This document shows positions 21,631 through 33,716 of a DNA stretch of 64,000 nucleotides, in pieces; position 1 is the first letter of the stretch, and the number at the start of each line of letters is the position of its first letter. The DNA is from Oscillospiraceae bacterium (lineage in GTDB: Bacteria > Bacillota > Clostridia > Oscillospirales > Oscillospiraceae). A program made the position numbers and the translations under genes. The notes below the pieces were generated by a model. That model was not told where the DNA came from and searched no databases. It saw only the letters and a program-made list of their open reading frames with translations. The stretch lies in assembly GCA_902787755.1 (NCBI GenBank), contig CADAHL010000002.1:57878-121877 (forward strand), read 5' to 3'.

Positions 21631-24189
21631 TCATTCCGAGATCTGTCTGGCGGCCAGCTGGTGGAACAGCCCGCCCAGACGCATCAGCTCGTCGTAATTG
21701 CCCTCTTCCACGATCTTGCCTTCATTGAGCACCAGGATCCGGTCGCAGTTTTTGATGGTGCTGAGCCGGTGCGCGATGACGATCCTGGTCACGTTCATCT
21801 TGTCCAGGTTCTCGGACACCGCGGCCTGGGTCAGGTTGTCCAAAGCGCTGGTGGCCTCGTCAAAGAGCAGGATGGAGGGGCTTCCGATAATGGCCCGGGC
21901 GATCAGAATACGCTGCTGCTGGCCGCCGGAGATGGTACCGGAGGACTCGGAGAGCACCGTGTGGATCCCCATGGGCATCCGTTCGATATCCTTTTTGAGG
22001 CCCACCTTGGCGATCACATCGTTCACGTCGGCGATGGTGGCGGTGGGGCAGGTGATGGTGATGTTTTCAAAGATGCTGCCCGAGATCAGGTGTCCGTTCT
22101 GCAGCACCACACCCAGGTTGTGGCGAAGTTCGCGCTTGTCCAGCGTCTTCAGGTCCTTGCCGTCGTAGCAGACGGTGCCGCTCTTGGGGTTCTCAAAGCC
22201 CAGAAGCAGCTTCAGCAGCGTGGATTTGCCGCAGCCGGAGGAGCCCACGATGCCCACGTATTCTCCGGCCTTGATGGTGGTGGTGATGCCGTCGAGCACG
22301 TTCCGGCCGCCTTCCTCATAGGAGAAGCGCACATCCTTGAGCGTAATCTCGCCGGTGAGCTTGCCGGGGATCTCACTGTTCTCGCCGTCCTCGGGCGCGG
22401 TCTCGATGACCGGGCGGAGCCGGTCATATTCCGGGCGGATCTGGAAAATGCTCATGACGGAGTTGGTCATCTCCAGAATGGCGGCGGAGAAGGCGCCGAA
22501 GGCGGAGGTGAAGGCCATGTAGGAGCCTACGGACAGGGAGCCGTTGTCCTTCTTCATGATGACGTTTACCACGATCAGGTAGAAGATCATGGAGAAGATG
22601 TTGCCCACGGAGCCGCCCAGCGCGCCGGAGAAGGAGGAGATGCGGCTTTCCTTGATGGAGGCGCTCTCCCGGTCGGTGAAGGGGATCAGGTACTGGAAGG
22701 CGGCCCGATCCTCGGCGCCCGCCATGCGGATCTTCTCAATACCGGAAAGGTACTGATAAAGCCTGGCGCTGGCCTTGCCCCCGGCCTCCACGATCCGCCG
22801 GTGATACTTCAGCGAGGTCATGTTGATGAGGTAGGTGAAGACGGCGTAAACCACCAGCATCAGCAGGGCGACCCAGCTGAGCTTGGCGGAGTATTTGAAC
22901 ATCCGCACCAGATACATCAGGGAGAACAGGGTGGACAGACCCGTGACCAGGAAGGTGTTGACAAAGGTGGTGCCGAAGGACCCTACGGAATTGACGCGCT
23001 CGGCCAGATCCGCGCTGTCGTAATCCCGGAAGAAGCTCTCGGGCAGATGGAACACCCGGTAGTACACCGCGTTCTGCAGATCATAGCCCACATGACCGCT
23101 GATGCGGTATTCGCTGAGCTTCTTGACCATGTCGAAGAACAGGTTGCCCACCATGAAGGTGGCGATCACGATACACAGCTGAATGAGCTGGGAGGAGTCG
23201 CCCACGGGAATGTAATCGTCGTAGATCTTCTGGTTCAGCATGGGCAGGAGGATGCCGATCAGCACGCCCACCAGACCCAGAAGAATGACCATCAAAAGAT
23301 CCGCCCGGCGGATGCTCTTGAGAGAGAAAGCGATCAGATCCTTCACGTTCAGCTTCCGGCCGGGCAGGGCGCGGGTGATGGTGAAGGCCTTGGGGTCCAC
23401 GGTCTCGGCGATCTCTTTGGTGAGCTTCTTCTTTTCTCCGGTCTTGCCGTAGTAGACGTCGTAGCCGGTCTGGCCTCTTGGCACGCAGGCCACGGGCTCT
23501 CCCTCGATCCAGCCGATGATGGTGCCGCTGTCATTGGCATACCACTTGGGATCCAGCACCACATTCCGGCAGATGAAGCGGGAGGCCTTGGCGATGCTCC
23601 GCACGGTCAGCTCATCCGAGATGTTCAGCTTGTCCATGGGGAGGATATCGATGGCGGCGGAGCGGCAGGCGAAGGCTACCGCCCGATACAGGGGATCGTT
23701 GCCCTCGATGCGTTCCTCGGTCTTGGTGAAGGACTCGGCGATCATGCGGTTGGAGTCCTGGGCCACGGCCGGGTCGTTTTTCTTGCCGCGGTTAATGAAG
23801 ACGTTGTCCTTCAGGGCTTCCAGCTTATAGCGGTCGATGACGCTGCGGTTGAAGCCCTCGGTGGCGAAATCGGTGAGTCCCGCGCCGGTGCAGAAACGCT
23901 TGTACAGAACGCTGGTGGCCTTGCCGGGCATCATGTTCAGATCGGCCTCATCCTCGGGGATGAGAACGAAGCGCCAGTCCACGCCGTCCTCGTCCCGACA
24001 GGAGAAGGAGGGGATGCTGCGGCCCTCGCTGACCTCGCACAGCTTGATGCGCCGGATGGGAGCGCCGTCCTTCAGAGGCGCTACGAAAACGATAACGGTG
24101 CCGGAAACGACGCGATAGGCGTCGCCGTCATGCTCGGTGACGTATTGGTCGGTGCTGTAGAGATGTATGGCTTTTCCCAGATCGTCCAT
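21631..24189 (-). CDS. NHLP-type bacteriocin export ABC permease/ATPase (no peptidase)
   Basis: 852 residues, matching the NHLP/NHLM exporter permease-ATPase subunit (TIGR03797 type). An N-terminal about 270-residue soluble region takes the place of the C39 domain. An ABC exporter membrane domain with six helices (about 290-560) and a C-terminal ATPase follow: VGSSGCGKSTLLKLL (Walker A), SGGQQQRILIARAI (signature) and ILLFDEATSALD (Walker B). It likely forms a heterodimer with the C39-ABC protein encoded 14 nt upstream, exporting leader-bearing peptides of the Nif11/nitrile-hydratase class. Confidence 0.93.
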   Translation of the reverse strand: MDDLGKAIHLYSTDQYVTEHDGDAYRVVSGTVIVFVAPLKDGAPIRRIKLCEVSEGRSIPSFSCRDEDGVDWRFVLIPEDEADLNMMPGKATSVLYKRFCTGAGLTDFATEGFNRSVIDRYKLEALKDNVFINRGKKNDPAVAQDSNRMIAESFTKTEERIEGNDPLYRAVAFACRSAAIDILPMDKLNISDELTVRSIAKASRFICRNVVLDPKWYANDSGTIIGWIEGEPVACVPRGQTGYDVYYGKTGEKKKLTKEIAETVDPKAFTITRALPGRKLNVKDLIAFSLKSIRRADLLMVILLGLVGVLIGILLPMLNQKIYDDYIPVGDSSQLIQLCIVIATFMVGNLFFDMVKKLSEYRISGHVGYDLQNAVYYRVFHLPESFFRDYDSADLAERVNSVGSFGTTFVNTFLVTGLSTLFSLMYLVRMFKYSAKLSWVALLMLVVYAVFTYLINMTSLKYHRRIVEAGGKASARLYQYLSGIEKIRMAGAEDRAAFQYLIPFTDRESASIKESRISSFSGALGGSVGNIFSMIFYLIVVNVIMKKDNGSLSVGSYMAFTSAFGAFSAAILEMTNSVMSIFQIRPEYDRLRPVIETAPEDGENSEIPGKLTGEITLKDVRFSYEEGGRNVLDGITTTIKAGEYVGIVGSSGCGKSTLLKLLLGFENPKSGTVCYDGKDLKTLDKRELRHNLGVVLQNGHLISGSIFENITITCPTATIADVNDVIAKVGLKKDIERMPMGIHTVLSESSGTISGGQQQRILIARAIIGSPSILLFDEATSALDNLTQAAVSENLDKMNVTRIVIAHRLSTIKNCDRILVLNEGKIVEEGNYDELMRLGGLFHQLAARQISE

Positions 24190-24203: not shown

Positions 24204-26348
24204 TCAGATGTTATTGACAAACTCTCTGTAGTACCCGTCCACGTCCTTCAGACTGCGGTGGGTGCCGCGCTGTACGATCTTGCCGTTTTCCATAACGACG
24301 ATCTGGTTGCAGTCGCGGATGGCAGAGAGCCTGTGGGCCACGATGATGCAGGTGCAGCCCCGGCGTTTGATGTTGTCAAGGATCTGCTTTTCCACAATGG
24401 GGTCCAGGGCGCTGGTGGCCTCGTCCATAATGAGGATGGTGGGCTTGGTGGCCAACGCCCGGGCGATCTCGATGCGCTGGCGCTGACCGCCGGACAGGTT
24501 GGTGGCGCCTTCGGTGAGCATGTAGTCGTAGCCGCCGTTGCAGCGCATGATGTAATCGTGGATACAGGCGTCCTTTGCGGCCTGGACCATGTCATCCTCC
24601 AGAATGGCCGGGTTCCACATGGTGATATTGTCCCGGATGGAGCCGGAGAAGAGAACGATGTTCTGACTGACGGTGGCAACGCTGGCGTTCATCACTTCCC
24701 GGGAGAGCTTGCGCATCTCGACGCCGTCCAGACGCACGGTGCCGCCCCAGGGCTCATACAGGCCGCTGACCACCTTGGCCACCGTGGACTTGCCGCAGCC
24801 GGAGGCGCCGACGAAGGCGATGCTCTCGCCGCTGCGCAGGTGGAAGTTGAAGTTCTCCACCAGGGGAGGGGCCAGTCTGCTGTAGCCGAAGGAGATGTCG
24901 TCCAGCTCGATCTCGCCGGAGAGCTTCCGGGTCATGGAGGTCTTCTCCGTCTGATCGGTGTAGCGGCTGTCTTCCCCGTAATTGTCGATGTCGTCCACTC
25001 TTCGCAGGTCCGCCTTCAGCTGCTGGATGCGCTGAATGAAGCCGACCAGGGAGTTGATGGGCTCGTTGAAGGAGTCGAACAGGGAGTTAAAGGCCAGCAG
25101 AGCGCCCATGGTCATGTTGCCGTTGATGACCAGAATACCGCCGGCCAGCAGAAGCAGGGCGTCGGTGATCTTGCCGAAGCCGTCGGGGATGGCACCGGAG
25201 ATCTGCTGGAAGCGGCTGAGCTGCTGCTCGTAGTTGGCGCCTTTGGCCTGGTAGCCCAGGATGCGGGTGGTGTACTCGGACTCGGCGCCGGAGGCCTTGA
25301 TGGTGTCGGTGATGCTCAGGCCCGCGCACAGCGCGCCGTAGAGCTTGCCCATGGCCATCTGCCGCTTCATGGTCACGCCGCTCATGAGCTTGTTGGACAC
25401 GAACACCGCCGTCAGGCTCACCGCCACGTTCACCAGACCGATCAGGGTCAGGGGAATGCTGTACAGCAGCAGCATCAGGAAGTAGAAGATGGCGATGATG
25501 ATGTTCAGTACCGTCTCGGCCAGGTCGCCGGCCAGAAACTCGTTGACGTTGTTGTTGCTGGTCATGCGCTCCACCAGGTCGCCGGAGTAGCGCTGGTCGA
25601 AGAAGCTCACCGGCAGGCGCAGCAGATGCCGCAGGAAACCATTGCCGGACATGAGAATCATCTTGCTGCGCAGCTTCTGCAGCACCAGGCCCCGGTAGTA
25701 GGTCAGGCCCATCTTCAAAGCAATGGCACAGCCGATGAAAACCAGAATCTTGGTTAGCCAGTCGGTATAGCCGCCCACCAGGATATCGTCCATGAACACC
25801 TGGCTGAGCACCGGCATCACCAGACCGGGGAACACCAGCAGCAGACCGATGTAGAAGAGCTTGAAGAGAACAGAGTACTGGCCTTTGAGCCGCTGCTGGA
25901 TAAAGGTCAGGGACGTGGGGGGCTTCTTGGCTCTCTCCCACTTGTCGGTGAGGGAGAAGGTCAGGACCACGCCGGTAAAACCGTCGTCCAATTCCTCCCA
26001 GGTGAGCTTGCGCCTGCCCTCGGCAGGGTCGTTCAGGTAGGCGTACTTGCCTTTGATGCCTTCAAATACCACAAAGTGGTTGAAGTTCCAGTGGATGATG
26101 CAGGGGGTCTGGATCTCCTTCAGGGCGTCGATCTCCTTGCGGAAGCCCTTGCAGGCCAGACCGTATTTCTTTGCGCAGCGCATGATGTTTCCCGCCACAC
26201 AGCCGTCTCGGGAGACGCCGGTTTCGATACGCATCTGCTCCAGGGGCATGAATTTCCCGAAATAGCCGAAAATCATGGACAGGGAAGCGGCGCCGCATTC
26301 CGTTGCCTCCATCTGATAGACGGTCGGCGTCCTCACATAATTCCCCAC
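24204..26348 (-). CDS. NHLP-type C39 peptidase/permease/ATPase exporter
   Basis: 714 residues, TIGR03796 type. The N-terminal C39 peptidase has Cys18 (TECGAASL), His91 (NHFVVFEG) and Asp107 (LNDPAEG), the complete catalytic set for cleaving after double-Gly leaders. Six membrane helices and an ATPase with GASGCGKSTVAKVV, LSGGQRQRIEIARAL and ILIMDEATSALD follow. It would both remove the leader and export the Nif11-like peptides encoded at 31627-32317, both of which carry an Ala-Gly-Gly site. It lies 3 nt downstream of the HlyD-type gene, consistent with one transcript. Confidence 0.95.
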   Translation of the reverse strand: MGNYVRTPTVYQMEATECGAASLSMIFGYFGKFMPLEQMRIETGVSRDGCVAGNIMRCAKKYGLACKGFRKEIDALKEIQTPCIIHWNFNHFVVFEGIKGKYAYLNDPAEGRRKLTWEELDDGFTGVVLTFSLTDKWERAKKPPTSLTFIQQRLKGQYSVLFKLFYIGLLLVFPGLVMPVLSQVFMDDILVGGYTDWLTKILVFIGCAIALKMGLTYYRGLVLQKLRSKMILMSGNGFLRHLLRLPVSFFDQRYSGDLVERMTSNNNVNEFLAGDLAETVLNIIIAIFYFLMLLLYSIPLTLIGLVNVAVSLTAVFVSNKLMSGVTMKRQMAMGKLYGALCAGLSITDTIKASGAESEYTTRILGYQAKGANYEQQLSRFQQISGAIPDGFGKITDALLLLAGGILVINGNMTMGALLAFNSLFDSFNEPINSLVGFIQRIQQLKADLRRVDDIDNYGEDSRYTDQTEKTSMTRKLSGEIELDDISFGYSRLAPPLVENFNFHLRSGESIAFVGASGCGKSTVAKVVSGLYEPWGGTVRLDGVEMRKLSREVMNASVATVSQNIVLFSGSIRDNITMWNPAILEDDMVQAAKDACIHDYIMRCNGGYDYMLTEGATNLSGGQRQRIEIARALATKPTILIMDEATSALDPIVEKQILDNIKRRGCTCIIVAHRLSAIRDCNQIVVMENGKIVQRGTHRSLKDVDGYYREFVNNI

Positions 26349-26351
26349 GGC

Positions 26352-27203
26352 TTATTTTCCTCCCCAGAGCTCGGCCAGCTTCTCAGACAGCTTCTTGATG
26401 GGAGGGATCTCCTCCACCACGAACTTGGCGCTGACCGGAGTATCGTCCGTCTCCTGTACGCGGCTTCCGCCGGAGCTGTTGGACCAGTAGTAACCGCTGG
26501 CGGTGGAGTCATCCAGAATGATCTCGCAGACAACGGCCACGGTGTTGTTCTCTGCCCCCAGAACAGCCTTGGCGTGGGGGTTGGAGGGGTCGATGGTGGC
26601 GTCGATGTTGGTCACGCGGGCCACCATGTAGCCGTTGCGCTGGCTTTCCTCACCGGTCAGGTAGACGTTTACGTACAGACCGCCGTCGGCCCAGCGGCGG
26701 ATCTTGCTGCGGTCGGCGAGTTTCAGATAGCAGACCACCACCTGATCATAACCGGCCTTCTGATTGTGCGTGACCGAGGGGGTGACCCGGGCCACCAAAG
26801 TACCGTTTTCCAGGGCGTCACCCACTTTGACGTTCACACTGCTGACGGTCCCCACCTGATCGGAGAACAGGGTCTGCTCTTCTCCGCTGGCATCGGTGTA
26901 GGTGAGGATGGCGGTGGGATTGTCGATGTGCAGCTGACTGCCTTCGGCCACGTTGATCCACTTCACCACACCTTTTTCCCTGGCGTAGACGGCGCTGACC
27001 CCAGTGGGGTTGGTGATCACGCCGTCGGCAGTGACGGTGACCGGGATCCTGCCTACGATGGACCAGATCAGCGTCACCACGATGATGAGAGTGACGGCGG
27101 CCAGGGCCAGCCAGGACAGGGGAGAGGTCACGGTCAGTGCCTTGTCGAGCTGTTCCGGCGAGGAGATTTTTTCCAACGCCGACTTTCTGTAAAGCTGAGC
27201 CAT
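26352..27203 (-). CDS. HlyD-type NHLP secretion protein
   Basis: 283 residues, matching the NHLP bacteriocin system secretion protein (TIGR03794 type). A cytosolic start (SALEKISSPEQLDKAL) is followed by one membrane helix (about 33-52) and a periplasmic-adaptor-like barrel/lipoyl region with REKGVVKWINVAEGSQL and VGTVSSVNVKVGDALENGTLV. It bridges the exporter to the envelope. It is the first gene of the nine-gene minus-strand run and lies 61 nt after the sigma-factor gene, behind an AGGAGGAAA site. Confidence 0.92.
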   Translation of the reverse strand: MAQLYRKSALEKISSPEQLDKALTVTSPLSWLALAAVTLIIVVTLIWSIVGRIPVTVTADGVITNPTGVSAVYAREKGVVKWINVAEGSQLHIDNPTAILTYTDASGEEQTLFSDQVGTVSSVNVKVGDALENGTLVARVTPSVTHNQKAGYDQVVVCYLKLADRSKIRRWADGGLYVNVYLTGEESQRNGYMVARVTNIDATIDPSNPHAKAVLGAENNTVAVVCEIILDDSTASGYYWSNSSGGSRVQETDDTPVSAKFVVEEIPPIKKLSEKLAELWGGK

Positions 27204-27264: not shown

Positions 27265-27783
27265 CTATTTCCATTCGGCCAGCAGTTCCTCCAGCCGGTC
27301 CAGACCCCGGGAGAGGATCACCCTGGCGTTTCCGGGGCTCACGCCCAGCTCCTCGCTGATCCGCCCGGAGTCATAACCTTTGAAGTAGCGCAGCACGACA
27401 GCCTTGCGCTGCTTCTCCGGCAATTCCATGAGGGCGGAAGCCACGCTTCCGCGCAGCTGCTCCAGCCAGACACAGCGATCCATGTCCGTCTCGGCTGCGG
27501 ACAGGATCTCCTCCACGGCGCCCAGGTCCACCGTTTCCCTGTGGTCCCGGTAATGGTTCTTGATCCGGCTGTTCATGACCATGTACAGCCAGGTGCTGAC
27601 GGAACTGACGGCGGGATCATATTCTTCATAATGGTCGTAGCAGTAAATGAGCGCGTTCTGGACCAGATCCTCCGCGTCCTCCTTGCTGCCGACCTTCTTC
27701 ATGGTATAAAAAAGGAGAGTGGAATAATACTGTCGGTAAACATCCTCAAAAGGCGGTTTCCGACTGCTGGCGTTCTGAGCCAT
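27265..27783 (-). CDS. ECF-type sigma-70 factor
   Basis: 172 residues. Region 2 (about 12-80) includes EDAEDLVQNALIYCYDHYEEYDP and STWLYMVMNSRIKNHYRD; region 4 (about 115-165) includes LPEKQRKAVVLRYFKGYDSGRISEELGVSPGNARVILSRG. No anti-sigma gene lies next to it. Since it heads the exporter operon and shares a motif-bearing neighbourhood with the divergent maturation/precursor promoters, it is the best candidate for cluster control. The STAS, FHA and kinase genes downstream could feed into its regulation (inference). Confidence 0.9.
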   Translation of the reverse strand: MAQNASSRKPPFEDVYRQYYSTLLFYTMKKVGSKEDAEDLVQNALIYCYDHYEEYDPAVSSVSTWLYMVMNSRIKNHYRDHRETVDLGAVEEILSAAETDMDRCVWLEQLRGSVASALMELPEKQRKAVVLRYFKGYDSGRISEELGVSPGNARVILSRGLDRLEELLAEWK

Positions 27784-27963: not shown

Positions 27964-28008
27964 AAATAAAAGCAAAGCGACCGAGCCTTCGGAGGCAACG
28001 GCCGCTTT
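27964..28008 (-). terminator. Terminator of the maturation operon
   Basis: A 10-bp stem with one mismatch (AAAGCGGCCG side) and an inner GCCT/AGGC stem is followed on the minus strand by GCTTTTATTT. It overlaps the stop codon of the small acidic protein gene. Confidence 0.8.
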
Positions 28009-28204
28009 ACTTCTTTCGGTTCTCCAAAGCCCGCAAAAACTGTTCATAGCTGGGGCGGGAAGCGGCGGCAGAGATCCGATCCAGATCGTCCATCTCCAAT
28101 TCGTCGTCCGCACAGTCCCGCAGAATCTGGCTCAGAGCGTCCTCACCATCGGAGAACGGCTCCATATCCGCTGCCAGAAGCAGCAGCTTCTCCACCCGGC
28201 TCAT
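28007..28204 (-). CDS. Small acidic protein at the end of the maturation operon
   Basis: 65 residues, no Cys and no membrane segment. A very strong ribosome-binding site (AAGGAGGTG) precedes its ATG, so it is probably expressed well. The middle, DDELEMDDLDRISAAAS, resembles the end of Nif11/NHLP leaders (eLs..dLd.v.GG) as seen in the two precursors of this cluster, and is followed by a basic RALENRKK end. It could be a leader-like decoy, a third peptide, or an unrelated helper; there is no double-Gly. I assign no function. Confidence 0.6.
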   Translation of the reverse strand: MSRVEKLLLLAADMEPFSDGEDALSQILRDCADDELEMDDLDRISAAASRPSYEQFLRALENRKK

Positions 28205-28245: not shown

Positions 28246-29130
28246 TCAGGCCCGGTAGTTTTCCAGCATGTCATCCCGCAGCTGGAGAGGATAGATCTCC
28301 CGCAGCCCCTCCAGCACCAGGCCCTCCACCATCTCCCATTTGTTTGACGGGCAGTACCCGGAGATCCGGGAGCGGCAGATGTCGATCACGGCGGGCTGCA
28401 GCTCGGTTTCCTTCAGCCAGGCCATGAACTTATCCACCCGCTGACGGATCCGCTCGTCCCGGGTTTCCCTGGGATTCGGCGCCGGGTCCCGGATCTGCAT
28501 GTAATAGCGGCCGTCTTTCTCAAAGGCGTAGACGATCCGTTTGGCCAGGATCCGACAGGGATGCCTGGGATCGGTACGGAAGGCGCGGTAGGCCTCTTCC
28601 GTGATCTCCAGACGGGCGGGCGTTCCGGTGGATAGGGTGTTGTCCCAGCAGAAGTAGTCGATGTCGATGTCCAAGACCACCGGCACATCAATGGGGGGCA
28701 GCGGATTCAGACTCAGCTGCAGGTAGTCTACGGCTTTGACGTTCTCATTGCCGCTGTCGGTCAGAGGGATATAATCGCGAAGGATCAGCTCCTGAGTGCC
28801 CCGGAGAGCCACCGCCTTGACCTGAGGAGGCTTGTTGGAGGGGAAAATGCTCTTGAAATTCACCATCTTGTCAAAGATCCCCTCCCAGAAAGCGGGGGCG
28901 ATAAAATCGGCGATGCCGAGCCCGTCCCGGAGAAACTCCATGGCTTGAGCGACATTGGGAAAGGGCTGGGTAAAATCGTGATCATAGGGGCCGCATTCCA
29001 GGTCGTCGTGATGGTCCACGTGCACAAGCACGTTCCCGGAAGCCGGGATCAGGCCCTCCTCCACCGCAATGTGCCAGATGGCGTAGGCCTCGCTGTGCTC
29101 TTCCATTCTGAATACAGGGATCATATCCAT
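28246..29130 (-). CDS. UPF0489 family protein, likely peptide arginase
   Basis: 294 residues. It carries the arginase-like metal motifs of UPF0489: HVDHHDD (residues 37-43) and LDIDIDYF (Asp154, Asp156, Asp158), fitting a binuclear Mn site. UPF0489 members OspR (landornamide pathway) and the enteropeptin-cluster enzyme turn Arg residues of RiPP precursors into ornithine. Here the gene overlaps the upstream HExxH gene by 10 nt in a radical SAM operon, divergent from two precursors whose cores end in WRxIKxFFRRW, giving four Arg per core as candidate targets. Family assignment is firm; peptide arginase activity is inference from family and context. Confidence 0.82.
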   Translation of the reverse strand: MDMIPVFRMEEHSEAYAIWHIAVEEGLIPASGNVLVHVDHHDDLECGPYDHDFTQPFPNVAQAMEFLRDGLGIADFIAPAFWEGIFDKMVNFKSIFPSNKPPQVKAVALRGTQELILRDYIPLTDSGNENVKAVDYLQLSLNPLPPIDVPVVLDIDIDYFCWDNTLSTGTPARLEITEEAYRAFRTDPRHPCRILAKRIVYAFEKDGRYYMQIRDPAPNPRETRDERIRQRVDKFMAWLKETELQPAVIDICRSRISGYCPSNKWEMVEGLVLEGLREIYPLQLRDDMLENYRA

Positions 29131-29987
29131 AGCTCCAATCCAATCGTATTGTTCTCAATGTCCGCCAGGAACGCAAAGGGATCCTGGAAGCGCTCCGGGT
29201 TCCGGGCGGAAAGCAGATTGATCTGTTTTCTGACCTTCTCCAACAAGACGGGCGAGGGCAGGCCGCCCTCCACATAGTTCTGCAGCCGTCCGCCCTCTCG
29301 ATAGCCCCAGGGCTCCAGACCCAGAAGCCGGGCGGCCAGATCCGTGTCGTAGCGGCCGAAGGCGGCCAGCAGCCCGATGCAGTCGGCCACGATCTCGTCC
29401 CGGATGGCCTGCTGGTGGTCCTTCCAGAGCCTGCGGCAGATCCAGTGGGTGATCTCGTGGTAGCTGCGGATCGTCAGGGACGCCTCCAGCCAGACCTCCG
29501 GGCTGAAGCCCGCGGCTTCCGCCGGAAAGGCGCTGTAGGGGCCCTCGCTGACCAGCAGCAGACAGTCCCGATAGTTGTCCGGCTGAGCGGTGAAGGCGCG
29601 AAACTCCGCCTGCCAGTCTCCTGCCGGATGCTCGGCAAGCCACCGGGCCTTGTGGCGGTGGAGCTTTCTCCAGTTCACCACGCCGCTGATGGTCACCGCT
29701 CCCATGGAATCCGGGATCTTCACCGGCTCGCAGCGGTGGGCCAGGGCCTGTACCGCCCGGATGAAATCCCCCCGGCGGCCCAGGCGGATCAACTCCACGT
29801 CCCCAGCTGGGGTGTGACAGATGCTGGCGGAATCGCTGGGGCTGCCGGGGAAGGGATTGGGCAGCTCCACGGGCAGGATACCTTTGCGAACGATGCGGCG
29901 GTAGGCCTCGCTCTCGCTCTGCCCGGCCTGAATGGGCAGGGAGAGCTGGGGATATTCATAGATGAGCCGGTGCATGATCTCAGACAT
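29121..29987 (-). CDS. HExxH-containing protein, putative zinc peptidase of the RiPP operon
   Basis: 288 residues, no signal peptide. The central SYHEITHWICRR contains HExxH (His177, Glu178, His181), and DEIVADCIGLLAAFGRYD about 20 residues later offers a third ligand (Glu198) as in gluzincin-type peptidases. The flanking domains are not familiar. It overlaps the radical SAM gene by 8 nt and the UPF0489 gene by 10 nt, so all three are probably translated in step. It may trim a leader or core inside the cell, or use the motif for another metal reaction; both are inference. Confidence 0.65.
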   Translation of the reverse strand: MSEIMHRLIYEYPQLSLPIQAGQSESEAYRRIVRKGILPVELPNPFPGSPSDSASICHTPAGDVELIRLGRRGDFIRAVQALAHRCEPVKIPDSMGAVTISGVVNWRKLHRHKARWLAEHPAGDWQAEFRAFTAQPDNYRDCLLLVSEGPYSAFPAEAAGFSPEVWLEASLTIRSYHEITHWICRRLWKDHQQAIRDEIVADCIGLLAAFGRYDTDLAARLLGLEPWGYREGGRLQNYVEGGLPSPVLLEKVRKQINLLSARNPERFQDPFAFLADIENNTIGLELWI

Positions 29988-31446
29988 GGCCGGCCTCCCG
30001 TTTCTCGGCCAGGGGACAGGTGGCGTCGCCCCGGCTTAATCGACCGTGGAGCTTCAGATTCACCGCCATGCAGTGCCGGCAGGCGTTCTCAAAGCGGCAG
30101 GAGGCGCAGGGCTCCTCCGGACTTTTCTGGGCATCCCGGATCTGCTGGAGAACGGGGGACTGATTCCAGTACTCCTCGATGCTGTCCCGGTCCTCAAACA
30201 GTTCGATGTGCCGGCAGGGGGACAGGCGGCCGTCCAGGCCCACGGAGAAGGAATCCCGCCCGGCGCCGCAGCCCCGGAAGGGACCCCGGTTGCGGTTGCC
30301 GAAGAAGCTCTGACCCACCAGGGCCTTGAGGGAGGAGTAGCAGGATTCGATACACAGGTCCAGGGGACCCTGGTAGTCCCGGATCTGCCGGGCCAGCTTC
30401 TGCATCTGCTCCCGGCTGGGCAGGCTGGGCAGGGCATTCTGGCTGTCGGGCTTGAAGGCCATGACCATCAGGCCATGTACTTTATATTCCTCTGCCAGCT
30501 TCAGCATCTCCGGCAGGAGGTCGGCGTTGGAGTCATGCACGACCCAATTAATATAGGTATTGTCAAAGCCCCGGTCCCGCAGAAGGCTGAGCAGATGGAT
30601 GGCCAACTCGTAGCCGTCCCGGGTGTGGGCGTTGATCTCAGCGGTGGGGCCGTTGAGGGAGACATAGATCCCCCGGACCCCGGCGGAGAGCAGCCGGTCC
30701 AGGCTTTTGTCGTTGATGCCGAAGCCGGACAGAGCCACGCTGGGGTCAATGCCGTTTTTCACGGCGCATTCAATGATCTCAAACAGCCAGGGGTAGCACA
30801 TGGTCTCACCGCCGGAGAGGTTCACCGTATCCACTCCCAGACGGCCTGCCTCCTCCAGACGACGGATGGCCACCTCCCGGGGCATATGGCGTCCGGCCTG
30901 GAGATGGACATAGCACTGGGGACAGCGCAGAGGGCACTGAGTGGTCAACTCCAGGTTCATGGCCAGGGGATAGGCGAAGCCGTCCTCCACCGCCCCGCAG
31001 CCCTCCAGCAGCAGAGCCACCGGGAAGACACCGCCCTTACGATCCAGCAGCAGGCCCAGTCCGGTCCTGCACTCGGGGCACAGACAGGGGCGCAGGGACA
31101 GAAAGCGCTCCAGCTGCTGACAGCAGCGCTGGGACAGGAGCTTGGCTTCCTTTATAATAGTAAGACAGGCTAAGCTGCCGTTGAGGCAGATCCAGTCTCC
31201 GTCACTCTGTCTGGCGGCCTTGTCTGAAATATGGCTGCGCAGAGGCTCCAGCGGCTCCGGAAGAGCGATCTGCCCGGGGCGGATCCTCTCCGCGCTCTTA
31301 TTTATAATAGGAATGCTGCGGCCATCCTGATCCAGAAGAAGTCCGCCCTGGGCCTGGGGCAGAGGAACGGGAGAGAAGGACAGGGCCTCGGGCTGCTCCA
31401 GCAGGCGCAGGGCCTGGGCCTCATATTCCCGGGACATATCTTTCAT
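29980..31446 (-). CDS. Radical SAM/SPASM peptide-modifying enzyme
   Basis: 488 residues. An N-terminal about 150-residue region includes a Cys-rich LRPCLCPECRTG segment. The radical SAM domain has the cluster motif CPLRCPQC (Cys171, Cys175, Cys178) and an NLSGGET loop. The C-terminal SPASM region has Cys in CGAGRDSFSVGLDGRLSPCRH and a final CASCRFENACRHC set for auxiliary clusters. This layout is typical of RiPP-maturing enzymes. The precursor cores have no Cys, so sactionine formation is excluded; C-C crosslinks (cyclophane type), epimerisation or another change at Trp/Phe/Arg/Lys is possible. First gene of its operon, with a dedicated promoter. Confidence 0.92.
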   Translation of the reverse strand: MKDMSREYEAQALRLLEQPEALSFSPVPLPQAQGGLLLDQDGRSIPIINKSAERIRPGQIALPEPLEPLRSHISDKAARQSDGDWICLNGSLACLTIIKEAKLLSQRCCQQLERFLSLRPCLCPECRTGLGLLLDRKGGVFPVALLLEGCGAVEDGFAYPLAMNLELTTQCPLRCPQCYVHLQAGRHMPREVAIRRLEEAGRLGVDTVNLSGGETMCYPWLFEIIECAVKNGIDPSVALSGFGINDKSLDRLLSAGVRGIYVSLNGPTAEINAHTRDGYELAIHLLSLLRDRGFDNTYINWVVHDSNADLLPEMLKLAEEYKVHGLMVMAFKPDSQNALPSLPSREQMQKLARQIRDYQGPLDLCIESCYSSLKALVGQSFFGNRNRGPFRGCGAGRDSFSVGLDGRLSPCRHIELFEDRDSIEEYWNQSPVLQQIRDAQKSPEEPCASCRFENACRHCMAVNLKLHGRLSRGDATCPLAEKREAGHV

Positions 31447-31479
31447 TCCGATCCCTCCTCATTATTGCTTACACTCCTT

Positions 31480-31507
31480 TATAACCCACAGTTTCACCCG
31501 TGTTACA
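31480..31507 (-). promoter_or_regulatory. Non-sigma-A promoter of the maturation operon (TGTAAC-N16-GTTATA)
   Basis: On the minus strand TGTAAC (31502-31507), 16-nt spacer, GTTATA (31480-31485), about 35 nt before the radical SAM start codon. The identical boxes with identical spacing face the other way at 31540-31567. Suggests a shared ECF sigma promoter; the boxes also form a near inverted repeat, so an operator is the alternative. Confidence 0.55.
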
Positions 31508-31539
31508 TTTCAAAATCGGAAAGTTTTTTCCCCGCGGTC

Positions 31540-31567
31540 TGTAACGCTTTCGGGCTTTCGGGTTATA
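31540..31567 (+). promoter_or_regulatory. Matching promoter of the precursor genes (TGTAAC-N16-GTTATA)
   Basis: TGTAAC (31540-31545), 16-nt spacer, GTTATA (31562-31567), about 60 nt before the first precursor ATG. The spacers of the two divergent copies differ while the boxes agree, as expected of a real promoter class. Confidence 0.55.
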
Positions 31568-31626
31568 CATTGGCGAAAGCGAAATACGGCTTTCGAAAAA
31601 AACAAAATGAAAAGGAGATTAATACC

Positions 31627-31944
31627 ATGAAAGAAAAGATCAATGAGATCCTTGCCAAGGAAGGCTTTGTGGAGAAAATGCTGGCTTGCGAGGAGCCCGA
31701 GCAGGTTCAGGCTCTGTTTGCCGCCGAGGGCATCGAGCTGACCATCGACGAGGTCAAGGCCATCGGCCGTGGCCTGGAGCTGGCCTCTACCGAGGGTGAC
31801 GAGCTGTCTGAGGACGCTCTGGATGCGGTTGCCGGCGGCGTGAGCTCCGACACCGTGAACGCCATCATCGACGGCATCTCCACCGCCGCCAAGTGGGTGT
31901 CCAACAACTGGCGCAGAATCAAGGACTTCTTCCGCCGCTGGTAA
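31627..31944 (+). CDS. Nif11-like RiPP precursor peptide 1
   Basis: 105 residues behind AAAAGGAGA. The leader (1-71) is Nif11-like: FVEKMLACEEPEQVQALFAA, then ELTIDEVKAIGRGLE and ELSEDALDAVAGG with Gly70-Gly71 as the C39 cleavage site. The predicted 34-residue core has a polar/hydrophobic front with three Ser/Thr and an Arg/Trp/Phe-rich end, WRRIKDFFRRW. No Cys in the core, so neither lanthionine nor sactionine bridges are possible. It would be modified by the radical SAM and UPF0489 enzymes and exported by the NHLP transporter. An upstream in-frame extension exists but lacks a ribosome-binding site. Confidence 0.9.
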   Translation: MKEKINEILAKEGFVEKMLACEEPEQVQALFAAEGIELTIDEVKAIGRGLELASTEGDELSEDALDAVAGGVSSDTVNAIIDGISTAAKWVSNNWRRIKDFFRRW

Positions 31945-32008
31945 TCGGAAGCGGTCGGGAAGTCATCGCAACACGTACTGAGGAATAATAGAAAAGGAGA
32001 CTGCTGCA

Positions 32009-32317
32009 ATGGAAGAAAAAATCCAGGCCATTCTGGCCGAAGAAGGTTTCGTTGAAAAACTGATGGACTGCGAGGAGCCGGAACAGGTTCAGGCTCTGTT
32101 CGCGGAAAAGGGCGTGGAGCTGAGCCTGGATGACGTCATGGGCATCAGCAAGGGCCTGAAGGCGGCTCTGGACGAGAGCGATGAGCTGGACGAGGATTCT
32201 CTGGACTCCGTGGCCGGCGGCTCCGCCACTGTGGCGATCATCGGCGCGGTCGTCACCGGCGTCTCGCTGGTGGTCAGACACTGGCGCAGCATCAAGAACT
32301 TCTTCCGCCGCTGGTAA
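32009..32317 (+). CDS. Nif11-like RiPP precursor peptide 2
   Basis: 102 residues, 64 nt after precursor 1, behind AAAAGGAGA. The leader is closely related to that of precursor 1 (EGFVEKLMDCEEPEQVQALFA, and DEDSLDSVAGG with Gly70-Gly71). The 31-residue core begins with a very hydrophobic Ala/Val/Ile/Gly stretch and ends HWRSIKNFFRRW. The two cores differ at the front but share W-R-x-I-K-x-F-F-R-R-W, implying that the maturation enzymes or the target recognise this end. The hydrophobic front plus cationic end suits a membrane-active peptide, possibly two-component with peptide 1. Confidence 0.9.
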   Translation: MEEKIQAILAEEGFVEKLMDCEEPEQVQALFAEKGVELSLDDVMGISKGLKAALDESDELDEDSLDSVAGGSATVAIIGAVVTGVSLVVRHWRSIKNFFRRW

Positions 32318-32335: not shown

Positions 32336-32368
32336 ATGAACGCAGGTAAAACGCCTGCGTTCATTTTT
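32336..32368 (+). terminator. Terminator of the precursor genes
   Basis: An 11-bp stem (ATGAACGCAGG with its complement) and a short A-rich loop, followed by TTTTT. Confidence 0.85.
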
Positions 32369-32381
32369 GCCCCGTATTCGG

Positions 32382-32410
32382 TTGACTTTTTCTTTCTTCG
32401 GTCGTATGAT
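32382..32410 (+). promoter_or_regulatory. Sigma-A promoter of the CPBP protease gene
   Basis: TTGACT (32382-32387), 17-nt spacer, TATGAT (32405-32410), so this gene can be expressed independently of the precursors. Confidence 0.7.
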
Positions 32411-32443
32411 GTGCGCAGTTTGAGAAAAGAGAGGTCTGTCTCC

Positions 32444-33319
32444 ATGGAACAAAACGAGATTGTCTCGAGCAATAAACCGAAAAAGCTGAAACGTCACTTT
32501 ATTATCTGGGTACTGCTGCTGAGCTTTGTGATGATGCTGTTGGGCCAGATCCTGGGCGAGGTGATCTGCCTGCCCTTGAATCGGCTGGCAGGGGACCGGG
32601 GCGACATTCAGTTTGCCCTGATGTACCTGAGCTTTATCGGGATCCACATCATTGTGCTGCTGTTCTGCCTGCTGTGGGAGAAGCCTGCGTTCCGCAGCTT
32701 CTGGCACGTGAAGCAGGGCGGCGGAAAGGGCAACACCTTCAAGATGCTGGTCCTGGGCCTGCTGATCGGTATCGTCATGAACGGCGCCTGCATTCTGATC
32801 GCCTGGCTCCACGGGGATCTGGATCTGAGCATGGGGGTGTTTCACCCCGGCTATCTGCTGTTTGCACTGGCCTGCGTGTTCGTCCAGTCTGCGGCGGAGG
32901 AACTGCTGACCCGGGGCTATATGATGAAAACCCTGGGAGAGCGCTACGGCGTCTGGGTGGCGGCTATCGCCAATTCCCTCTTCTTCGGCGCGCTGCATCT
33001 GATGAACACCGGCATCACGGTGCTGTCCTTCTTGAACATCGTGGCCATCGGCTTTGCCTTGAGCCTGGTCATGATTTACTTCGACAGCCTGTGGATGTGC
33101 GCGGCGCTACACACCGGCTGGAACTTTACCCAGAGCCTGCTGTTTGGCCTGCCCAATTCCGGCATCGTCTCCCAGTCATCCTGGTTCCATCTGGAGGGCG
33201 CCAGGGGCAGCCTCTGCTACGACCCGGTTTTCGGCGTGGAGGGGACCATTGTCGCAGTACTCGTCATCTGCGTGTTCGGTCTGCTGGTCTTCCTGCGGGG
33301 AAGAAAACAGAAAGCATAA
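32444..33319 (+). CDS. CPBP-family intramembrane glutamic protease
   Basis: 291 residues with about seven membrane helices. The CPBP (Abi) motifs are present: AAEELLTRGYM (EExxxR), SLFFGALHLMN (FxxxH) and LHTGWNF. The ATG at 32444 lies after GAGAGG and is preferred to an upstream in-frame start that would fall before the promoter. CPBP proteases near bacteriocin genes take part in maturation or self-immunity. Its place directly after the two precursors with a separate promoter fits immunity best, but this is inference. Confidence 0.85.
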   Translation: MEQNEIVSSNKPKKLKRHFIIWVLLLSFVMMLLGQILGEVICLPLNRLAGDRGDIQFALMYLSFIGIHIIVLLFCLLWEKPAFRSFWHVKQGGGKGNTFKMLVLGLLIGIVMNGACILIAWLHGDLDLSMGVFHPGYLLFALACVFVQSAAEELLTRGYMMKTLGERYGVWVAAIANSLFFGALHLMNTGITVLSFLNIVAIGFALSLVMIYFDSLWMCAALHTGWNFTQSLLFGLPNSGIVSQSSWFHLEGARGSLCYDPVFGVEGTIVAVLVICVFGLLVFLRGRKQKA

Positions 33320-33328
33320 TACTATGAC

Positions 33329-33362
33329 AAAAGACCCCGGATCGTGTGATCCGGGGTCTTTT
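33329..33362. terminator. Bidirectional terminator between the CPBP gene and rnpB
   Basis: A 15-bp stem (AAAAGACCCCGGATC with its complement) with loop GTGT and T-runs on both strands. It ends the plus-strand CPBP gene and lies directly after the 3' end of the minus-strand RNase P RNA. Confidence 0.85.
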
Positions 33363-33366
33363 GTAT

Positions 33367-33708
33367 GAGTCGGCCTGTAAGCCGGGTTCTGTCGAGAACG
33401 ACCATCTATCTGTGGCCAGGAATTGCTCCCTGGCTCAAGCCACCTCCCGGGGACGGCCGGGCCGGCCATATGTCCCTCCCACGGTGTTGCTCCGGATAGA
33501 GTTTACAGCGCCAACGTGTCTCCACGCGGCGGGTGAGCTCTTACCTCGCCTTTCCACCCTTACCCCGGCAAGCCGGGGCGGTATCTCTCTGTTGCACTTG
33601 TCCGAGGGTCACCCCTGGCGGGCGTTACCCGTTATCCTTGCCCTATGGAGCCCGGACTTTCCTCACGCACAGGCTTTCGCCTTATGCCCGCGGTCGTTCG
33701 GCCGACTC
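33367..33708 (-). ncRNA. rnpB: RNase P RNA, bacterial class A
   Basis: The minus strand starts GAGTCGGCCGAACGACCGC and ends with the standard CCCGGCTTACAGGCCGACTC, the two ends pairing as P1. The conserved GAGGAAAGTCCGGGCTC lies near the 5' end, with ATAGGGCAAGGATAACGG, GGGTAAGGGTGGAAAGGCG and the GACAGAACCCGGCTTA 3' part. The length of about 340 nt fits. It is the catalytic RNA that matures tRNA 5' ends. Reading frames predicted across it are not genes. Confidence 0.95.
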
Positions 33709-33716
33709 ACCCGGAT

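Follow-up and report, generated by a model that had tools for sequence, protein, structure and literature searches.

Which Arg residue is altered when a peptide arginase homologue faces precursor peptides that end in several of them? The question is raised by a gene cluster in a 64,000-nucleotide stretch of DNA from an Oscillospiraceae bacterium (contig CADAHL010000002.1, positions 57,878 to 121,877; hereafter the 'window'), in which the gene of a UPF0489 protein is opposed, on the other strand, by genes for two Nif11-like precursors with the C-terminal ends WRRIKDFFRRW (precursor 1) and WRSIKNFFRRW (precursor 2). A first-pass annotation, which had reported these ends correctly, proposed that the enzyme converts their Arg residues to ornithine (Orn). 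Our analysis confirms what was observed there and supports its interpretation, with the substrate claim being sharpened to the penultimate Arg (Arg -2). In our view the locus probably encodes a pathway for ribosomally synthesized and post-translationally modified peptides (RiPPs) that are modified at the C-terminus, the arginase being predicted to hydrolyse the penultimate Arg to Orn before export via a double-glycine exporter.

The peptide arginase homologue and its precursors

Peptide arginases use two manganese ions to convert Arg within a peptide to Orn by hydrolysis (PMC12703449), and six manganese ligands located in three motifs have been described for OspR (PMC10028609). In the 294-residue UPF0489 (PF12640) protein of the window (28246..29130, minus strand), the two motifs named in the first-pass annotation, HVDHHDD (D39, H41, D43) and LDIDIDYF (D154, D156), are indeed present, and EEHSEAY (H12), containing an EEH motif that had gone unmentioned, supplies the sixth ligand. 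A phmmer search of PDB chains yielded a single distinct sequence up to E=1, namely OspR (8brp, 'Peptide arginase'; E=1.4e-42), and residues 4-282 align with residues 5-293 of the crystallised enzyme at 33.2% identity over 277, the dimerisation region being covered. As judged from these sequences, the match is far beyond chance. Pfam UPF0489 recognises the protein with 41 bits (cut-off 27), and the NCBIfam model for the peptide arginases FlmR/OhkR (NF052474) scores 195 bits, which is under its subfamily cut-off of 350 and hence marks the window arginase as a relative outside that subfamily.

Altered metal ligands and a placement outside the peptide-arginase clade, either of which had been named as an objection to the assignment, were both checked. 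The six ligands, together with Glu11 and Ile73 (eight columns), are invariant in 22/22 aligned enzymes (21 sequences from this analysis and one OspR stretch), and a midpoint-rooted maximum-likelihood tree groups the window arginase with eight Bacillota homologues (support 100/99), with OspR located in the sister half. Most of these eight clade-mates reside in RiPP-type clusters, and several of their records name animal guts or rumens. The enzyme is rare: among 400 genomes of the window's family it is present only in the window's own, barring a 48-residue match in genome G283 (L002; E 8.9e-4, 38% identity) that we took as a chance match, the genome being kept among the controls, and the UPF0489 Pfam family occurs in 5/398 genomes of a phylum draw. 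A further UPF0489 protein (L004/L141) was set aside, as it scores 15.9 bits with the arginase model and has, by eye, no RiPP genes around it.

Precursor 1 (31627..31944, plus strand; 105 residues) and precursor 2 (32009..32317, plus strand; 102 residues) each consist of a Nif11-like leader ending in AGG (VAGG ahead of each core) and a core, VSSDTVNAIIDGISTAAKWVSNNWRRIKDFFRRW and SATVAIIGAVVTGVSLVVRHWRSIKNFFRRW, respectively, and each is preceded by a ribosome-binding site judged good by eye. The codons for the last three residues are found at 31933..31941 (Arg103-Arg104-Trp105) and 32306..32314 (Arg100-Arg101-Trp102), likewise on the plus strand. Two additional precursor matches are located on other contigs of the same genome, and all four end in FRRW.

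The C-terminal Arg-Trp tail in related clusters

Scanning genome contigs with the arginase alignment yielded 20 loci. Seventeen of the loci (L017, L020 and L026 being left out) plus genome G000 served as input for the precursor search, which gave matches in 16 of these 18 arginase genomes. Precursors were gathered with a full model (alignment A4, tail included) and then re-selected by a leader-only model; dropped were three truncated open reading frames (ORFs) of genome G867 and one row with an unaligned leader end, itself ending in RRW. This left 103 leader-selected precursors from 16 genomes. Trp is the last residue of 80 of them and is preceded by Arg in 70 (Arg-Trp, RW), so that Arg occupies position -2 in 70/80 of the Trp-ending cores, and at least one RW-ending precursor is encoded in 12/16 genomes. 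Arg at -3 is common to 21/70 RW precursors, and the upstream Arg of the WRR/WRS segment is not conserved across the relatives. Upstream of the last four residues, Arg accounts for 54/3343 in the RW cores, and 39/70 of these have Arg only within the last four.

Neither of two controls contains an RW ending. The first comprises 33 ORFs with a matching leader, taken from genomes that belong to the window's family and in which no peptide arginase was found, and selected in the same manner as the arginase-genome set (A4, then leader-only); two of these ORFs end in Trp, and several are low-scoring (13-20 bits) and possibly no precursors. The second comprises nine, obtained via TIGR03798 from a class-wide draw of genomes not searched for the arginase, of which one ends in Trp; both controls represent a part of the matches. 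Since only the C-terminal Arg-Trp is conserved across the related precursors, Arg -2 is the expected site of the arginase. The proposal that the substrate Arg lies in the core tail is thus supported for the C-terminal Arg-Trp (70/103) and not for the upstream Arg, and the likely target, as far as aligned sequences can tell, is the penultimate Arg and not every Arg of WRRIKDFFRRW.

Several observations weigh against this reading. The first-pass annotation had predicted a Nif11-type peptide, and although the double-glycine leader end (VAGG) is found in both and an NHLP exporter with C39 peptidase is encoded in the cluster, the Nif11 leader model TIGR03798 scores 29.7 and 25.2 bits (E 5.6e-07 and 1.4e-05), in both cases below its cut-off of 32.3, which a related precursor in locus L011 exceeds with 33.4 bits. 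Moreover, 40/70 RW precursors stem from the single genome G867, and RW endings amount to 30/54 when that genome is excluded. Ten of the 80 Trp-ending precursors lack Arg -2 (four end in GW, two in KW, and one each in HW, NW, QW and PW), and those of G865 and G866, two genomes devoid of a prenyltransferase domain (see below), end in FRGW with Arg at -3, indicating that the position is not absolute. The window arginase is located on a long end branch of the tree (1.57), so that its activity could have drifted, and as far as we have seen no characterised enzyme belongs to its own clade. Finally, the radical SAM enzyme or the DUF7005 protein described below could account for the RW motif instead.

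The 23 precursors without terminal Trp include several that, by eye, represent a second NHLP-like type beside another radical SAM protein. A second precursor type with a leader resembling, by eye, that of nitrile hydratase, and in part with GWKWP or similar ends, is likewise found inside L018 (6373-8285), L021 (5186-7863) and L024 (7772-9711), beside a radical SAM protein (radical SAM-SPASM-TPR in L018). Very different cores occur in the sheep-rumen Oscillospiraceae genome G867 (contigs C136, C480, C148, C60, C351 and C184; loci L097-L101 and L035/L050/L061): its fetched contigs contain 50 complete leader-matched ORFs, of which 41 end in RW, often as NITRW or SRW, and one in KW.

Partner enzymes, the proposed pathway and its alternatives

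On the minus strand, the arginase gene is the last of three, following those of a 488-residue radical SAM/SPASM protein (29980..31446; Radical_SAM 4.2e-19, SPASM 2.8e-05) and of a DUF7005 protein (29121..29987; PF22541 E=1.6e-63). Because neighbouring ORFs overlap by 8 and then by 10 nucleotides, the three are probably co-translated. The radical SAM protein contains the CxxxCxxC motif and a 162-residue N-terminal part, and it reaches the cut-off of none of the 25 NCBIfam models listed. A reading of the N-terminal part as a decayed prenyltransferase was rejected, since its local alignments with all five prenyltransferase domains tried score within the range of 300 shuffles, and the same is true of its alignments with four N-termini resembling a RiPP recognition element. 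The DUF7005 protein exhibits the motifs HExxH (H177/E178/H181) and DExxAD (D197/E198/A201/D202), which are invariant in 13/13 sequences; its predicted structure (pLDDT 89.9) has no Foldseek match in the PDB at 1e-3 (best E 1.4), and no NCBIfam model matched. It is thus, as judged from its motifs, probably a metalloenzyme without known fold. HEXXH proteins of RiPP pathways comprise both hydroxylases and enzymes removing a C-terminal tetrapeptide (PMC12636437), and the motif alone hence does not make DUF7005 a protease.

Both partners recur with the arginase. A homologue of the radical SAM protein (E<=1e-15) is found in 15/18 arginase genomes and DUF7005 in 16/18; in the phylum draw of 398 genomes, UPF0489 occurs in five, DUF7005 in six and both in four (Fisher P=7e-8; the two draws are taken as the same genomes, since their handles agree). 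DUF7005 by itself is not diagnostic, as G484 and G815 carry it without a UPF0489 match. The notion that the radical SAM enzyme is dispensable, which had arisen from a copy in locus L027 lacking CxxxCxxC, was withdrawn, since a second radical SAM match exists in the same genome (G867:C102; 46% identity, with the matching stretch containing one TAA).

In the pathway that we propose, the arginase would bind the precursor and hydrolyse the penultimate Arg, and possibly Arg -3 as well, to Orn with release of urea, following the two-manganese mechanism that has been put forward for OspR. The same C-terminal Arg-Trp region would be modified or prepared by the radical SAM enzyme and DUF7005, with the arginase acting together with or after them and before the C39 exporter cleaves behind GG and secretes a peptide that would end in Arg/Orn-Orn-Trp. 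For the peptides of the window, Orn formation is a prediction from sequence.

In a variant of this order, which we consider fairly unlikely, the Arg-Trp tail must first be altered by the radical SAM enzyme or DUF7005 before the arginase can act on it. It would fit the ORF overlaps, which suggest joint production of the three enzymes, and PbsE, a pfam12640 arginase, provides a precedent in acting only on a substrate already modified by earlier enzymes (PMC12257519); an unchanged precursor mass with the arginase alone would, given that precedent, not count against Orn formation. On the other hand, OspR is independent of other maturases (PMC10028609), and the precursors of FlmR and OhkR are converted upon co-expression with the arginase alone (PMC12703449).

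We regard as distinctly improbable a role of the RW tail as a recognition tag (follower) for later removal, in which DUF7005 would cleave it off or remove it oxidatively, the arginase acting on another core Arg or serving for recognition only. A conserved tail on a varying core does look like a tag, the HEXXH enzymes PflC/PosC take off a C-terminal ARMD tetrapeptide that is conserved and that they recognise (PMC12636437), and the invariance of the DUF7005 motifs and the recurrence of this protein with the arginase likewise fit. However, kinship of DUF7005 with aKG-HEXXH proteins finds no support, given that neither a PDB fold nor an NCBIfam model matches, and with upstream Arg being rare in RW cores the arginase would be left without a conserved substrate. 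Least probable are unmodified double-glycine (class II-like) cationic bacteriocins with Arg and Trp aiding membrane binding and the arginase being unrelated, since the weak Bacteriocin_IIc matches (below cut-off), hydrophobic cores and C39 exporter that such peptides would share stand against RW endings in 70/103 precursors versus 0/33 and 0/9 in the controls, and against the recurrence of DUF7005 and the radical SAM homologue across arginase genomes.

Prenyltransferase-like domains, cluster surroundings and the wider family

In addition to Orn formation, the related clusters point to prenylation. The radical SAM proteins of L009, L011 and L028 contain about 300 extra N-terminal residues, which no NCBIfam model matches and for which Pfam offers nothing convincing (best E 0.037). 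The AlphaFold2 model of this domain from L028 (pLDDT 88.5) contains ten strands of at least three residues, and every one of the 42 structures that it matches in the PDB at E<=1e-3 is a prenyltransferase, of a kind that we take to be ABBA enzymes (TMq 0.42-0.57, TMt 0.34-0.52). Hence, a ten-strand barrel is predicted for this one domain, and the model suggests that the domain of the related clusters is ABBA-prenyltransferase-like. It is also fused to the radical SAM protein in L062 and to a radical SAM remnant in L027, occurs as a separate protein next to the arginase in several loci of Syntrophomonadaceae type, and is detected by its profile in 12/18 arginase genomes. The arginase and an isopentenyl-diphosphate-isomerase-type Nudix protein occur together in five loci (L009, L010, L011, L012 and L028); the cut-off of NF002995 is passed by the proteins of L009 and L028 and by the C-terminal part of the L011 radical SAM protein, and missed by the incomplete L010 protein and the short L012 protein (121.5 vs 127). 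In many relatives, an ABBA-type prenyltransferase would thus probably prenylate the C-terminal Trp or its neighbour, in some perhaps supplied by the isomerase. The window's genome, which is 92% complete, yielded neither the prenyltransferase-like domain (profile search of the window and its genome) nor a type 1 isopentenyl-diphosphate isomerase, and it appears to lack the prenylation step.

The fusions themselves are varied. In L011 (1625-4102), one 825-residue polypeptide combines the ABBA-like prenyltransferase, radical SAM/SPASM and isopentenyl-diphosphate isomerase (Nudix) parts; in L009 (10895-11638), the isomerase is fused to a LuxR-type (GerE) helix-turn-helix domain; in L027 (1081-2778), the prenyltransferase-like domain is fused to a radical SAM part that by eye lacks CxxxCxxC; and in L012 (~2380-2440) the prenyltransferase and radical SAM parts are in different frames, which is either a true break or an assembly error. 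Lone prenyltransferase-like proteins (L021 9736-11112, L019 8705-9964, L018 8646-9965) possess a C-terminal tail that by eye resembles a nitrile-hydratase-type leader, and a small ORF in L025 (9731-9979) and L020 (2047-2322) consists only of such a tail. In L018 (10899-11639) and L021 (11202-11927), a gene near the arginase encodes some 245 residues without Pfam match that by eye resemble a GNAT acyltransferase, which would fit acylation of Orn by analogy with selidamides.

Comparison with known systems delineates what is shared and what is not. AutF reportedly prenylates Arg, which is an alternative to Trp prenylation in the related clusters. With prenylated RiPPs, the related clusters share an ABBA-like domain, Nif11 leaders and a C-terminal Trp: MppC, which is of the ABBA type, attaches a geranyl group to Trp in a Nif11 lanthipeptide (PMC12715784), and PalQ, which is related to isoprene synthases, prenylates a C-terminal Trp (PMC10853753). 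Unlike those enzymes, the prenyltransferase-like domain considered here has no NCBIfam match and is in several cases fused to a radical SAM protein. With OspR/landornamide-type arginases (pfam12640), the window shares the enzyme family, the six manganese ligands, Glu11, Ile73 and a RiPP cluster, but it differs by its 33% identity, its clade, the C-terminal Arg-Trp tail and the radical SAM/SPASM and DUF7005 partners. Scanning ten cluster proteins of the window with Pfam revealed neither a lanthionine synthetase nor an MNIO. In the FlmR/OhkR 'DD(I/V)LF' RiPPs, a peptide arginase is likewise paired with precursors that share a short motif at the C-terminus, yet that motif differs and the modified Arg is located upstream of it (PMC12703449). 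The biphenomycin-like pbs/bpm clusters pair a pfam12640 arginase (PbsE) with a radical SAM enzyme, to which bpm adds an HExxH protein (PMC12257519), but they employ an MNIO and a B12-radical SAM enzyme on an FRF motif, whereas the radical SAM enzyme of the window is of the SPASM type. Peptide arginases acting on Nif11 precursors are already known, as pfam12640 arginases have been described for N11P precursors (PMC12703449), a type of substrate that the Nif11-like precursors of the window resemble. The RW-tail family, the radical SAM/prenyltransferase fusion and the role of DUF7005 look new: we saw no account of the Arg-Trp tail, the fusion or DUF7005 in the open-access literature searched, including passages of PMC2887384, PMC9505594 and PMC11002830, although a 2020 paper on diverse peptide arginases, or its supplements, may list some of these clusters.

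The remaining genes of the cluster follow beyond the arginase on the minus strand: a 65-residue ORF (ADDELEMDDLDRISAA; 28007..28204); an ECF-type sigma factor (27265..27783), possibly the cluster regulator, with sigma homologues in related clusters too; an HlyD-like NHLP secretion protein (26352..27203; TIGR03794 120.9 bits, under the cut-off of 156.2); and a pair of NHLP bacteriocin exporter subunits, of which the first (24204..26348; TIGR03796 959 bits, cut-off 853) contains the C39 peptidase (Pfam Peptidase_C39) expected to cleave after GG and the second is a permease/ATPase of 852 residues (21631..24189; TIGR03797 772 bits, cut-off 709). Small ORFs right after the sigma factor also occur in L018 (3735-4076), L019 (6755-7045), L021 (3248-3556) and L024 (5410-5661), where a leader-like LDxVAGG end was seen by eye; such an ORF could encode an anti-sigma factor or a decoy leader. 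Downstream of the precursors, a CPBP (Rce1-like) intramembrane protease (32336..33319, plus strand; PF02517 9.9e-18) is, from its sequence, a possible immunity or processing protein whose membership in the cluster is uncertain; a weak homologue (35 bits) adjoins the precursors of L063. A bacterial RNase P class A RNA (33362-33709, minus strand) is located just past the cluster and suggests a chromosomal setting. Phage or plasmid origin was rejected, a tblastn search with the arginase having given no match in the phage and plasmid collections.

It is thus tempting to think of a new RiPP family of gut and syntrophic Bacillota, a view whose chances we consider evenly balanced, in which variable cores carry a C-terminal Arg-Trp that would be rebuilt to Orn-Trp (prenylated in most) by the arginase, a radical SAM/SPASM enzyme and the new-fold metalloenzyme DUF7005, with prenyltransferase and radical SAM enzyme forming a single polypeptide in several members, joined by the isomerase in one, and the window representing a minimal, prenyl-free form. 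The conserved tail narrows the 'several Arg' of the first-pass annotation to one testable residue, and a Nif11-like leader combined with a C-terminal RW provides a handle for mining the family. Attention is also drawn to the fused prenyltransferase/radical SAM/isomerase polypeptide and to DUF7005, for which no relative of solved fold was found. The at least 41 RW-ending precursors of the one sheep-rumen genome suggest that a single enzyme set may tolerate very different cores, which would help in making Orn- and perhaps prenyl-bearing peptides. In the sequences compared here, the RW tail suggests itself as the mark of a wider family of arginase-modified peptides.

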